Source: Parvibaculaceae bacterium (GTDB taxonomy: Bacteria; Pseudomonadota; Alphaproteobacteria; Parvibaculales; Parvibaculaceae). Taken from it: a DNA stretch of 64,000 bases. The notes beneath the pieces were generated by a model. The model was not told the origin of the DNA and searched no databases. It saw only the letters and a list, made by a program, of their open reading frames with translations. The DNA lies in the NCBI GenBank assembly GCA_028283765.1, contig JAPWJY010000007.1:62001-126000 (forward strand), in the 5' to 3' direction. Made by a program: the position numbers and the translations under genes. Below, in pieces: positions 22,458 through 29,438 of this stretch (within the stretch, counting starts at the first letter, position 1; each line of letters begins with the position of its first letter).

Positions 22458-23798
22458 GTGACCGTCACGGTACGTTTCGCCCCGAGTCCCACGGGCCGGC
22501 TGCATATCGGCAACGCCCGTGCCGCGCTCATCAACCGGCTGTTCGCGACGCGGGCGGGCGGGCGCTTCCTGCTGCGGTTCGACGACACGGATACGGAGCG
22601 TTCGAGCGCGGACTATGAGCAGGGAATCTATGAAGATCTGGCCTGGCTCGGCATCCATCACGATCTTACCGATCACCAGTCGGCGCGCATCAGGCGTTAT
22701 GAAGAGGCGGCAGCGAAGCTCAGGGAATCCGGCAGGCTCTATCCCTGCTACGAGACGGCGGAAGAGCTTGAGCGCAAACGCAAGCGCCAGCATGCGCGCG
22801 GTCTGCCGCCGGTCTATGATCGCGCCGCCCTTTTGCTGAGCGACGCGGAGCGGGCCGCGTTCGAAGCGGAGGGCCGCCGGCCCCACTGGCGCTTCAAGCT
22901 CGACGCCATTGTTGTCCGCTTCGCCGACATCATCTGCGGCGATACCCATATCGACGCGAAGTCCCTGTCGGACCCGGTGCTGATCCGCGAGGACGGGCGC
23001 TTTCTCTATACATTGCCGAGCGTGGTCGATGACGTCGACTTCGCCATCAGCCATGTCATCAGAGGGGCCGATCACCTCACCAATACCGGCGTCCAGATAC
23101 AGATTTTCGAGGCGCTGGGCGCGACCCCGCCGCTCTTTGCCCATTATTCCCTGATGCAGGGGCCCGACGGGCGGCCCATGTCGAAGCGCGATGGCGACCT
23201 TTATTCGCTGGAAGGCTTGCGCAGTCGCGGCTATGAGCCGATGGCGCTCAATGCCTTGCTGGCGCGGCTCGGCACGCCCGATCCTGTCGAGCCGCGGCTG
23301 ACCATCGGGGAACTGGCGGCGGCGTTCGATCTCGGCAAGTTCGGCAAGTCCGATATCCGTTTCGATCCCGCCGACATCGACAAAGCCAATGCCGCTTTTT
23401 TGCACATGCTGCCTTATGAGGCGGTCGTTGGACGCCTTGGCGCGTCCGGCTGTGATCTGGGGCCTCTGTTCTGGGAAACGGTCCGGCCCAACCTCGCCAA
23501 ATTCGGCGACGTGTCGCTATGGGCGCAGGTGGTCAATGGCCCCGTCACGCCGGTGATCGGCGATGCCGCCATGCTGATCCGGGCGGCGGAACTGCTGCCT
23601 TCCGAGCCATGGGACGGCGAGACGTGGGGTGTCTGGGCCGAGCGTGTCAAGGCAGTGTCCGGGCTCAAGGGCCGGAGCCTGTTCATGCCCCTGCGCCTGG
23701 CCCTGACCGGGCTTGACCATGGACCGGAGCTGAAAAATCTGTTACCGCTCATCGGCAGAGAGCGGGCATCAGCCCGTCTTCGCGGGGAAACCCGCTGA
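22458..23798 (+). CDS. gltX: glutamate--tRNA ligase
   Basis: This 446-residue class I aminoacyl-tRNA synthetase has the HIGH-type motif APSPTGRLHIGNARAAL at the N-terminus and the KMSKS-type motif as MSKRDGD near residue 240. It starts with GTG, with AAGGAAG just upstream. Many alphaproteobacteria carry two gltX genes; this shorter form is one of these types, and a glutamyl-Q-like truncation is excluded by its full-length anticodon-binding part. The leader peptide of cimA begins only 22 bases after its stop, so any cimA promoter must lie in the 3' part of gltX or further upstream. Confidence 0.9.
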   Translation: MTVTVRFAPSPTGRLHIGNARAALINRLFATRAGGRFLLRFDDTDTERSSADYEQGIYEDLAWLGIHHDLTDHQSARIRRYEEAAAKLRESGRLYPCYETAEELERKRKRQHARGLPPVYDRAALLLSDAERAAFEAEGRRPHWRFKLDAIVVRFADIICGDTHIDAKSLSDPVLIREDGRFLYTLPSVVDDVDFAISHVIRGADHLTNTGVQIQIFEALGATPPLFAHYSLMQGPDGRPMSKRDGDLYSLEGLRSRGYEPMALNALLARLGTPDPVEPRLTIGELAAAFDLGKFGKSDIRFDPADIDKANAAFLHMLPYEAVVGRLGASGCDLGPLFWETVRPNLAKFGDVSLWAQVVNGPVTPVIGDAAMLIRAAELLPSEPWDGETWGVWAERVKAVSGLKGRSLFMPLRLALTGLDHGPELKNLLPLIGRERASARLRGETR

Positions 23799-23820
23799 AC
23801 GTACGGCGAAGGAACACCCC

Positions 23821-23880
23821 ATGATCCGCCTCAGGGCCTCGGCCCGGATCATCATCGGGACCATTATTATTAGCGGCTGA
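23821..23880 (+). CDS. isoleucine-rich leader peptide of cimA
   Basis: This 19-residue open frame reads MIRLRASARIIIGTIIISG and then TGA. Seven of the 19 codons are isoleucine, in two runs of three (ATC ATC ATC and ATT ATT ATT). AAGGA lies seven bases before the ATG, so it should be well translated. It sits 101 bases before the start of cimA, whose product starts threonine-independent isoleucine synthesis. These are the marks of an attenuation leader, in which ribosome stalling at Ile codons when charged tRNA-Ile is scarce changes the downstream RNA fold. The peptide itself probably has no function. Confidence 0.8.
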   Translation: MIRLRASARIIIGTIIISG

Positions 23881-23887
23881 CATCGTT

Positions 23888-23977
23888 CTGCCGCCGCCGT
23901 ACAAGCTCATCCAAAATCAAGAGTAAGCGCACGGGCCGGTCGGTGGCGGCAGGACCGTGTTTGTCCCTCGGGAACAA
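23888..23977 (+). promoter_or_regulatory. candidate cimA attenuator (competing RNA folds)
   Basis: CTGCCGCCGCCG (23888-23899) can pair with CGGTGGCGGCAG (23941-23952) to form a 12-bp stem with one G-U pair, the likely antiterminator. A competing small hairpin pairs CGGTC (23937-23941) with GACCG (23953-23957) and is followed by TGTTTGT. The end of the leader frame, GCGGC (23873-23877), can pair with GCCGC (23890-23894), so a ribosome that finishes the peptide would alter the choice. A third small hairpin, TTGTCC with GGAACAA (23961-23977), would hide the GGGAA ribosome binding site of cimA. The terminator is weak by eye, so control may be translational. Confidence 0.5.
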
Positions 23978-23981
23978 GAAA

Positions 23982-25602
23982 ATGACGAACCGGGAACGGC
24001 TCTATCTGTTTGACACCACGCTGCGCGACGGCGCGCAGACGGCGGGCGTTGATTTCAGCGTCGAGGACAAGCGCCTCATTGCCACGCTGCTTGACCAGTT
24101 GGGCCTTGATTATGTCGAGGGCGGCTATCCGGGGGCCAATCCCACCGATACCTCGTTTTTCAGCGAGCGCCCTTCCTTACAGCGCGCCAAATTCACCGCA
24201 TTCGGCATGACCAAGCGGGCCGGGCGCTCGGCCTCGAACGATCCGGGCCTTGCCCCGCTGCTCGATGCGCCGGTCGATGCCATCTGCCTTGTAGCGAAAA
24301 GCTGGGACTTTCATGTGAAGGTGGCGCTCGGCGTCAGCAACGAGGAGAACCTTGAAAGCATCGCTGACTCGGTCAAGGCCGTCGCCGCGCGCGGCCGGGA
24401 ACCCCTGATCGATTGCGAGCATTTCTTCGACGGCTACAAGGCCAATCCCGCTTATGCCGTTTCCTGCGTGAAGACGGCGCTGGAGGCGGGCGCGCGCTGG
24501 GCGGTGCTGTGCGACACCAATGGCGGCACGCTGCCCCACGAGGTTGGCCGCATCGTGGGCGAACTGATCGCACAGGGGGTGCCGGGCGAGAGGCTCGGCA
24601 TCCATGCGCACAACGATACGGAACAGGCCGTCGCCAATTCGCTGGCCGCCGTGAATGCGGGCGTGCGCCAGATTCAGGGCACGCTCAACGGGCTGGGCGA
24701 GCGCTGCGGCAACGCCAATCTGGTGTCGCTGATCCCCACCCTGCTGCTGAAGCCGGAGTTCGCGGACCGGTTCGAGATCGGCGTGAGTCTTGAAGGGCTG
24801 ACGGGCATCACCCATGTGTCGCGCACGCTCGACGAGGTTCTTAACCGTTCGCCCAATCGCTATGCGCCTTATGTGGGTGAAAGCGCCTTCGCCTCGAAGG
24901 CGGGCATCCATGTTTCCGCTCTGCTGAAGGACCCGCGCACCTATGAGCATGTGCCGCCGGAAAGCGTGGGCAACACGCGCCGGATTTCCGTTTCCGATCA
25001 GGCGGGGAAGTCGAACATCGTGGCGCGGCTGGAAGCGGCGGGGCTGCATGTCGACCCGCAGGACGAACGCATCGGCCGCCTGCTCGAGGTGGTGAAGGAA
25101 CGCGAGTTCCTTCGGTTATTCCTATGACGGGGCGGATGCTTCCTTCGAGCTTCTGGCGCGCCGCCTGCTGGGGCAGGTGCCGGAATTCTTTCTGGTCGAA
25201 TCGTTCCGCGTGCTGGTCGAGCGGCGCTACAACGCCACGGGCGACCTCGTCACCGTCTCGGAGGCCACGGTCAAGGTCGATGTGGACGGGGAAAAACTTA
25301 TCTCGGTGGGTGAAGGCAACGGTCCCGTCAATGCGCTCGATCAGGCATTGCGCAAGGATCTCGGCAAATATTCGCCTTTTATCGAGGATCTGCGGCTTGC
25401 GGATTTCAAGGTCCGTATCCTCACCAGCGGTACGGACGCGGTGACCCGCGTGATGATCGAAAGCGCTGATGGCAAGGGCAATCGCTGGTTCACGGTGGGT
25501 GTATCGCCCAACATTGTCGACGCCTCGTTCGAGGCGCTTTCAGACAGCATCATCTACAAGCTGCTGCGCGACGGGGCGCCTGCGCCGGTCAAGCAGCGTT
25601 AG
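23982..25602 (+). pseudogene. cimA: citramalate synthase with a one-base frame shift
   Basis: CimA condenses pyruvate and acetyl-CoA to (R)-citramalate, the first step of threonine-independent isoleucine synthesis. The first frame (23982-25127) holds the catalytic TIM-barrel: LFDTTLRDGAQTAG with the metal-binding Asp, HAHNDTEQAVANS with the metal-binding His pair, and GTLNGLGERCGNANL. It stops at 25125-25127. The second frame, which resumes as GYSYDGADASFELLARRLLG at 25114, holds the LeuA-type allosteric domain to 25602. Reading both frames gives a normal-length enzyme of about 540 residues. The break lies in GAGTTCCTTCGG (25104-25115); removing one C restores the frame. It may be a sequencing error, or a true mutation giving an enzyme without feedback control. 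Confidence 0.8.
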
Positions 25603-27546: not shown

Positions 27547-29438
27547 ATGAGACGTTCAAGCCTTCCCCCGCCTTCCGCGCACGACAGGGCGGCTGACCCG
27601 ATGCGCATCGTGCGGGCGCTCGCGCCTTTTCTCTGGCCTCAGGGCCGGGCGGACCTCAGGCGGCGGGTCGTGCTCTCCCTCATCGCGCTGCTGGCCGCCA
27701 AGGGCGTCACGGTCTATGTGCCGTTTCTCTACAAGGACGCGGTTGACGCCCTGAGCCCCAAAGGCGGCGTCACGGCCATGGTCGCGGTGCCGATCGCGAT
27801 GCTGGTCGCCTACGGGGTCGCCCGCATCCTCATGGCGGCGCTTGCGCAGTTGCGCGACGGGCTCTTTGCCGCCGTCGAGCAGCATGCCGAGCGCGGGCTG
27901 GGCCTGCGGACCTTCCGGCATCTGCACCGCCTGTCGCTGCGCTTCCATCTCGACCGGCGGACGGGCGGGCTCAGCCGCATCGTCGAGCGGGGCACGAGGG
28001 CGGTCGATTTCCTGCTGCGCTTCTCGCTGTTCAATATCGCACCGACGATTCTCGAAATGGTGCTCGTCTGCGGGATTCTGGGCTGGAAATTCGACTGGCG
28101 CTATGTGCTGGGCATGGCGCTTACCGTCATTGTCTATATCGCCTTCACCTTCACGGTGACCGAATGGCGTATCAAGCTGCGCCGGGAAATGAACGCGCTC
28201 GATACCGACGCCAACACCAAGGCGGTCGACAGCCTGCTCAATTTCGAACCGTCAAATATTTCGGCAATGAGAACCATGAGGCCATGCGCTTCGATGCGGC
28301 GCAGGCGGGTTATGAAAAGGCGGCGGTGCGCACGGGCACCTCGCTTGCCTGGCTGAATGCGGGACAGGCGGTGATTTTTACCGTCGGGCTGGTCGCCGCC
28401 ATGCTCATGGTCGCGCAGGGCGTCATGGCGGGCCGGATGACCATCGGCGATCTGGTGCTGGTCAACGGCTTTTATATCCAGCTCTATCAGCCGCTGAACA
28501 TGCTCGGCAATTTCTACCGCGAGATCCGGCAGGCTCTGATCGACATGGAGCTGATGTTCGATCTGCTGGATACGCCGCCCGAGGTGACGGACAAGTCCGG
28601 CGCGCCGCCTCTCAAGGTGACGGGGGGCGAAATCCGTTTCGAGCATGTGTCGTTCTTCTATGACGCCGCGCGCGGCATTCTCGACGATGTGAGCTTCACT
28701 GTGCCGCCGGGCCACACCGTCGCCATCGTTGGCCCCTCCGGAGCGGGGAAATCCACTATTTCGCGCATCCTGTTCCGCTTCTACGACATCCAGAAGGGGC
28801 GGGTGCTGATCGACGGGCAGGATATAGCGGGCGTCACGCAGGACAGCCTGCGCGCCGCCATCGGCATGGTGCCGCAGGACACGGTGCTGTTCAACGACAG
28901 CATCGGCTACAACATCCGCTATGGACGGCCGGATGCGAGCGAGGCCGAGATCGGGGAGGCGGCAGGGCTTGCCCAGATCGCCGGTTTCATTGAGCGGCTG
29001 CCCCGGGGCTACGAAACGCTGGTCGGCGAGCGCGGGCTCAAGCTCTCGGGTGGGGAGAAGCAGCGGGTGGCCATCGCCCGGACCATCCTGAAAAATCCCC
29101 CCATTCTGCTGCTCGATGAGGCGACCTCGGCGCTGGACACGCACACCGAGCAGGAAATCCAGTCGGCGTTGAAGCAGGTGTCGCACAATCGCACCACGCT
29201 GGTGATCGCCCACCGGCTTTCCACCGTGGTCGACGCCGACGAGATCATCGTGCTCGATCGGGGCCGGATCGCCGAGCGGGGCAGCCATGCCGGATTGCTG
29301 GCGCTGGGCGGGGAATATGCCTCGATGTGGCACAACCAGAAGGAAGCGCAGGAGAGCGGCGCGCCTCTGGGACCGGAAAAGGCAGGCCCGGGGCGGCTTT
29401 CGGAGCCCTTCCCGGATGAACTTTCCGCCGAGGCTTAA
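27547..29438 (+). pseudogene. Atm1-type ABC exporter with a one-base frame shift
   Basis: Together two frames encode a half-size ABC exporter of the Atm1/HMT family. The first frame (27547 to about 28248) covers five or so transmembrane helices and the line NTKAVDSLLNFE. The second resumes as TVKYFGNENHEAMRF from about 28249 and runs to 29438, with Walker A VGPSGAGKSTI, signature LSGGEKQRVAIAR, Walker B ILLLDEATSALD and H-loop VIAHRL all intact. The expected text at the join is GAAACCGTC; the sequence has GAACCGTC (28246-28253), one A short. Atm1 proteins export a glutathione-linked sulfur compound for Fe-S cluster or metal handling. The second part has no good start of its own, so the gene is broken or the base is a sequencing error. 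Confidence 0.82.

Follow-up and report, generated by a model that had tools for sequence, protein, structure and literature searches.

Citramalate synthase, encoded by cimA, is the committed enzyme of the threonine-independent route to isoleucine, and attenuators that act on amino acid genes are in general a textbook subject. In a genome of the Parvibaculaceae (Alphaproteobacteria; 3.24 Mb in 9 contigs), cimA is preceded by a short open reading frame that is unusually rich in isoleucine codons. This locus raises the question of whether the DNA in front of cimA encodes a switch that reads the supply of isoleucine and, if so, by which means the switch would act on the gene. From the comparison of sequences presented here, we consider it highly likely that cimA is controlled through its 5' leader by ribosome-mediated attenuation that responds to isoleucine. 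The locus was analysed within a stretch of 64 kb of DNA, referred to here as the window, and in related genomes.

The isoleucine-rich leader and its neighbouring genes

The order of genes at the locus is nadE, gltX, leader and cimA, and the features of the locus that are described below lie on the plus strand. The gene for a gltX-type glutamate-tRNA ligase (22458-23798; TIGR00464 with 321 bits, cut-off 290) ends 22 nt 5' of the start of the leader. The leader ORF itself (23821-23880) encodes MIRLRASARIIIGTIIISG followed by a stop codon, and its ribosome binding site, AAGGA (23809-23813), can be read in the sequence 7 nt before the ATG. Seven of the 19 codons are for isoleucine, i.e., codon 2, codons 10-12 and codons 15-17; the first run, ATC ATC ATC, occupies positions 23848-23856 and the second, ATT ATT ATT, positions 23863-23871, and the last two codons of the second run correspond to a pair that is near-invariant in relatives and that we regard as the putative sensor. 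The sequence thus bears out the original prediction of a 19-codon frame with seven isoleucine codons, two runs of three and a good ribosome binding site. When both strands of the window were considered, only three ORFs of 8 to 30 codons with at least six isoleucine codons were found, and the cimA leader ORF is the only one of these three that contains two isoleucine triplets.

The gene downstream had been taken to be cimA, and this identification held, since, among the NCBIfam models, TIGR00977 (citramalate synthase) scored best for each half of what is a split gene. The catalytic part, as far as the frameshift (23982-25127), scored 431 bits, and the C-terminal part in the shifted frame (25126-25602) scored 157 bits over profile positions 374-520; the cut-off of 450 bits applies to the whole protein, and the two halves were scored separately. 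The frameshift, of 1 nt, is located near 25110 (within 25100-25130), where the catalytic domain ends, and consists of one extra base in comparison with the sister genome (window TTCCTTCGG, L003 TTTCTTGG); in the other family loci examined, cimA is a single long ORF. An ATM1-like ABC transporter gene is likewise split by a frameshift, near 28250 (within 28160-28360 of the window). The one-base change in cimA is possibly a sequencing error and, because a second gene is also split, both frameshifts may be sequencing errors of the assembly.

A candidate promoter was detected within the 3' end of gltX (about 23718-23750), formed by the -35-like element TGGACCG (23720-23726), a 14-nt spacer and the -10-like element GTTACCGC (23741-23748). 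This layout resembles the RpoD consensus TTGaCgS / GCtANAWC (PMC8144410), which is that of Caulobacter. The leucine codon included in the -10-like element is CTA or TTA in all of the 41 leader-bearing loci, versus 1.5% of the other leucine codons of gltX. The same codon is also CTA or TTA in the gltX gene of 6 out of 12 other alphaproteobacteria, so the promoter-like block may predate the leader; it may be an internal promoter of old origin that serves the genes located 3' of gltX.

Alternative RNA folds in the window

Three stretches of the leader RNA, named here regions 1, 2 and 3, are predicted to pair in mutually exclusive ways. A 12-bp stem between 23888-23899 and 23941-23952 had been proposed originally; these pairs are exact, and the stem grows to 15 contiguous pairs formed by region 2 (GTTCTGCCGCCGCCG, 23885-23899) and region 3 (CGGTGGCGGCAGGAC, 23941-23955). 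The fold of positions 23885-23955 has a predicted energy of -36.3 kcal/mol, with a z-score of -4.6 versus mononucleotide shuffles. In addition to the pairings proposed earlier, region 1 (GCGGCTGA, 23873-23880), which comprises the last codons of the leader and its stop, can pair with positions 23887-23894 (-9.3 kcal/mol, z -2.5), and this 1:2 hairpin is also backed by the pair counts and by the covariation of the stop codon that are described in the next section. Therefore, region 2 has two exclusive partners.

Region 3 also has a competitor fold, the 3:4 hairpin (23929-23960), with 12 pairs, two mismatches and a predicted energy of -17.3 kcal/mol. The small hairpin at 23937-23957 that had been proposed as the competitor does exist; however, the one at 23929-23960 is stronger. 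A hairpin that had been proposed to hide the ribosome binding site of cimA is also present, at 23961-23977, over the Shine-Dalgarno GGGAA (23970-23974), but it is weak, with an energy of about -3 kcal/mol and a z-score of -0.95, and is not common to the relatives in that form.

Conservation in the Parvibaculaceae

A cimA-like match was found in all 40 genomes of the family that were examined (strong in 39), and the upstream DNA was readable for 37 cimA loci (L001, L003 and L005-L039). The original prediction had pointed to the conservation of the isoleucine codons in relatives as a means to evaluate it; an isoleucine-rich ORF of about 14-20 codons is present 5' of cimA in each of these 37 loci, and such leaders also occur in a second order, which is considered below. 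The named relatives in which this leader is also present are Parvibaculum and further MAGs of the Parvibaculaceae or Rhodobiaceae. In 35 of the 37 loci the leader ends with two isoleucine codons, one variable codon, glycine or serine, and the stop. The peptide ends are GLIISG (22 loci), ILIIRG (3), TIIISG (2), TVIITG (2), GLIIRG (2), GIIIRG (2), GLIITG (1), ALIISS (1) and MITWGS (2, L028 and L029). Isoleucine is encoded by ATT or ATC at 170 of the 171 isoleucine codons of the family leaders, and the interchange of these two codons is what selection on the amino acid would be expected to produce.

With the first base of the stop codon taken as reference, region 2 starts at 8-12 nt and region 3 at 55-61 nt, L011 and L031 being the exceptions, and the distance from region 3 to the start of cimA goes from 46 to 281 nt across the family. 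The part that is fixed is the leader together with regions 1-3. In three loci (L010, L013 and L039), inserts that measure roughly 40 to 215 nt separate an intact 1-2-3 core from cimA; these inserts are repeat-like and palindromic, e.g., CCCTCCCCCTGTGGGAGGG. The leader stop of L011 is followed by about 105 nt of inserted sequence before region 2 begins, and the switch may be broken at this locus. Both this insert and the divergent MITWGS ends of L028 and L029 count against the attenuator reading.

The conservation of the stems, which had also been suggested as a means of evaluation, was examined in the relatives, and the competing pairings were found to be kept, with compensatory changes. RNAalifold, applied to 25 distinct cores, predicted the 1:2 hairpin without any constraint, and at two of its pairs both sides have changed. 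Pair counts on the same 25-core alignment revealed 87% of paired cells for the 1:2 hairpin and 3 double-change cells versus 0.5 in shuffles (0/500); the unslid register gave the top score for pairing as well as for double changes. The identity of the stop codon (TGA, TAA or TAG) covaries with region 2: genomes with TAA have TTGGCCGC in this region, most genomes with TGA have a C at the matching place and some a G-U pair, and those with TAG, which belong to the second order, have CTGGCCG or CTCGCCG. Likewise, a change of glycine GGC to serine AGC in the leader of L006 is matched by a change of C to U in region 2. These changes in regions 1 and 2 are informative because the stop codon is involved; the independent covariation events are nevertheless few, since closely related sequences are counted repeatedly.

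For the 2:3 duplex, energies from -18.5 to -39.5 kcal/mol were obtained in 34 of the 34 loci tested. Regions 2 and 3 from the same locus pair slightly better than swapped partners (-24.6 versus -23.6 kcal/mol, permutation p 0.006), a small effect that is calculated ignoring relatedness. The CCG repeats of region 2 permit several registers, and for this reason the argument for the 2:3 stem comes mostly from energy, with a modest contribution of covariation. The exclusive 1:2 and 2:3 pairings are conserved, as in a leader-peptide attenuator.

Related leaders in front of cysS-cimA

A covariance model of the family core (R1) was run over 385 genomes of the class. Outside the Parvibaculaceae, it found only two genomes of another family, each with a weak match (E about 0.005), and both of these weak matches sit between gltX and cysS-cimA. 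A leader was found in this position in five of the six genomes of a second alphaproteobacterial order (MARTPRNCRLIITG, MARICNQCCLIITG, MARITIHCPIFISGIITG and two with the end MIIGG); some of them contain cysteine codons, which vary in number and place, and the isoleucine pair is invariant in all five. The matches of a joint model (R2) to these five leaders arise by construction, because they are included in its alignment. In contrast, L049 (MAG Hyphomicrobiales bacterium OFTM207) is absent from that alignment and its match to R2 (E 0.002) before cysS-cimA is therefore independent support, the tail of its leader being cut by the end of the locus. We regard the element before cysS-cimA as homologous to the leader of the Parvibaculaceae.

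No isoleucine leader was found directly 5' of cimA in 71 loci of other alphaproteobacteria, among them L049, which has the element before cysS; none was found in the gltX-cysS gap of 22 other alphaproteobacterial loci, and no model match occurred at 31 cysS loci. Model matches inside lepA (G267:C254), inside a flagellar gene (G350:C115) and in genomes G247, G255 and G325 have no cimA nearby and were taken as chance. A class-wide search with a DNA pattern for the leader tail was also set aside: outside the two groups its matches lacked a suitable start, were read through or had unrelated genes downstream, and a reversed control gave about equally many matches. In one genome of the Parvibaculaceae (G008), a short ORF with three cysteine codons, MTCRCCRKNTTESLA, is located about 135 nt 5' of the relocated cysS (L172), and it may be a separate cysteine leader.

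Proposed mechanism and mode of output

A ribosome with the last isoleucine codon in its A site would be expected to cover about 12 nt beyond this codon, which correspond to region 1, and two consecutive isoleucine codons stand ahead of region 1, where regulatory codons would be placed, in 35 of the 37 family loci and in all five second-order leaders. We infer that the leader is translated and that ribosomes stall on it, as well as the direction of the response. When Ile-tRNA is scarce, the ribosome would stall at the isoleucine codons near the leader stop and would cover region 1; region 2 would then be free, the 2:3 stem would keep region 3 from the 3:4 hairpin, and cimA would be expressed. 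When Ile-tRNA is ample, the ribosome would reach the stop and cover the start of region 2, or would leave and allow the 1:2 hairpin to form; with region 2 occupied, region 3 would fold into the 3:4 hairpin and the expression of cimA would fall. A hairpin that may compete for region 3 is predicted in all the loci analysed, and its form differs by clade.

The original prediction had described the terminator as weak and had left both transcription and translation as possible levels of control, and the comparison agrees with this, given that no conserved U-tract was found after the best 3:4 hairpin of the loci (a mean of 1.9 U in 9 nt, with 0-3 at most loci). In the window the tail after the hairpin is TTGTCCCTC, where TTGTCCC is a poor U-tract, not that of an intrinsic terminator. 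We place the element among the leader-peptide attenuators, outside their intrinsic-terminator subtype, whose U-run it lacks, and because no U-tract is conserved, we give Rho-dependent or translational control the same likelihood as intrinsic termination. We lean towards a transcriptional output, possibly Rho-dependent, which we consider to have about an even chance of being correct. According to this proposal, the 3:4 hairpin, alone or with Rho, would halt RNA polymerase ahead of cimA in cells with ample isoleucine. The hairpin of -17.3 kcal/mol in the window, followed by TTGTCCC, is consistent with such a role, and so are the inserts of L010, L013 and L039, since they lie downstream of an intact core, a situation that direct masking of the Shine-Dalgarno would tolerate badly; nevertheless, the scarcity of U residues after the hairpin at most loci argues against it.

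A translational output has a lower, still appreciable, probability. In this case, in the absence of the 2:3 stem, region 3 and the sequence on its 5' side would pair with the Shine-Dalgarno region of cimA and block initiation. Modelling gives some loci in which the unpaired fraction of the Shine-Dalgarno drops without region 2, i.e., L005 (0.80 to 0.19), L008 (0.82 to 0.36) and L030 (0.65 to 0.13), and in the Parvibaculum clade a helix beside the Shine-Dalgarno shows a double change from G-C to A-U (TTGTGGA/TCCACGA versus TTGTAGA/TCTACAA). However, the modelled exposure is unchanged in the window (0.59 with 2:3 forced versus 0.56 with region 2 masked) and in many Parvibaculum loci; the mean values are 0.53 and 0.41, respectively, with differences by clade, and occlusion of the Shine-Dalgarno as a uniform mechanism is unsupported across clades by these models. 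Furthermore, direct masking is disfavoured as the general output because three loci have inserts between region 3 and cimA.

It is very improbable that the conserved tail (IISG or IITG, followed by the stop) arrests the ribosome as a nascent chain in response to free isoleucine, instead of sensing Ile-tRNA at the level of codons. The tail is kept as a peptide, with GLIISG in 22 of 37 leaders, but the residue before the last glycine varies (S, T, R or G), the last glycine and the stop are accounted for by base pairing, and the number of isoleucines and the position of the runs also vary. Finally, the intergenic region is GC-rich and has CCG repeats, and short ORFs and GC-rich stems often arise by chance; nevertheless, the notion that the isoleucine-rich ORF is such a chance product is refuted for practical purposes by the conservation in the whole family and in the second order, with covariation.

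Comparison with known attenuators

In attenuators of the E. coli trp and ilv type (the Yanofsky model), regions 1-4 form exclusive pairings and the stalled ribosome covers region 1. The cimA leader has the same plan of regions and the same placement of the regulatory codons; it differs in its terminator part, which is weak or absent, and in its target gene, cimA. An isoleucine-codon leader peptide on a branched-chain amino acid gene has its alphaproteobacterial counterpart in the ilvBN (ilvIH) attenuator of Caulobacter crescentus (Tarleton et al. 1994, as described in PMC4117421). In that description, ribosome pausing prevents the formation of the terminator hairpin, and a comparable pausing is proposed for the cimA leader; however, the Caulobacter leader is described as having isoleucine and valine codons and a rho-independent terminator, whereas the cimA leader has only isoleucine codons and no conserved U-tract, and the ilvB genes of the family lack such a leader. 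The idea that the cimA leader came from an isoleucine leader of ilvB was rejected, as none was found in 30 family ilvB loci, where ilvB follows miaA.

The uORFC-8-2 motif, an attenuator with a uORF located 5' of cysS in Rhodobacterales (PMC8632094), resembles the leaders of the second order in that these also precede cysS and some of them contain cysteine codons. Compared by features only, the motif has tandem cysteine codons at about positions 14-15 and a terminator with a U-run, whereas the leaders described here have an invariant Ile-Ile before X-Gly/Ser-stop and no conserved U-run. In the window's genome cysS is located elsewhere (G000:C3:799916) and the leader has no cysteine; in the second order the cysteine codons are present, but they are not consistently tandem. 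A speculative and rather unlikely scenario is that an ancestral attenuator, located between gltX and cysS-cimA, read cysteine and isoleucine codons, and became an isoleucine-only leader for cimA in the Parvibaculaceae after cysS left, without an intrinsic terminator. If true, the ancestral leader would have coupled a tRNA synthetase gene to isoleucine synthesis.

No match to Rfam at the gathering score was obtained: the window region gave three chance matches below the cut-off, and six relatives gave none. In keeping with the original prediction, our search of the literature found no description of an attenuator or leader peptide for cimA or citramalate synthase, and the main text of a terminator survey (PMC2965389) does not mention cimA; subscription literature was outside the scope of this search, so the novelty is provisional.

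Isoleucine supply in the family

The regulatory domain of IlvA (PF00585) was found only in the window's genus, in 2 of the 40 family genomes, with a search that would miss a short threonine deaminase devoid of this domain. A biosynthetic-type IlvA with two C-terminal regulatory domains, present in the window's genus only, is encoded at G000:C3:1670015-1670575 (L222, L223), and no isoleucine leader was seen at ilvA of this genus. Given that PF00585 was not found in 38 of the 40 genomes, most of the family probably relies on cimA as its main entry to isoleucine, and a sensor on cimA that reads only isoleucine therefore makes metabolic sense. Overall, the interpretation that prompted this analysis is supported, and the leader is very probably a familiar type of isoleucine-sensing switch placed on a gene for which none was found described. 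The 37 natural leaders, in which the stop codon and the RNA fold covary, are together with their cysteine-containing relatives a good system to address how the amino acid specificity and the mode of output of attenuators change.
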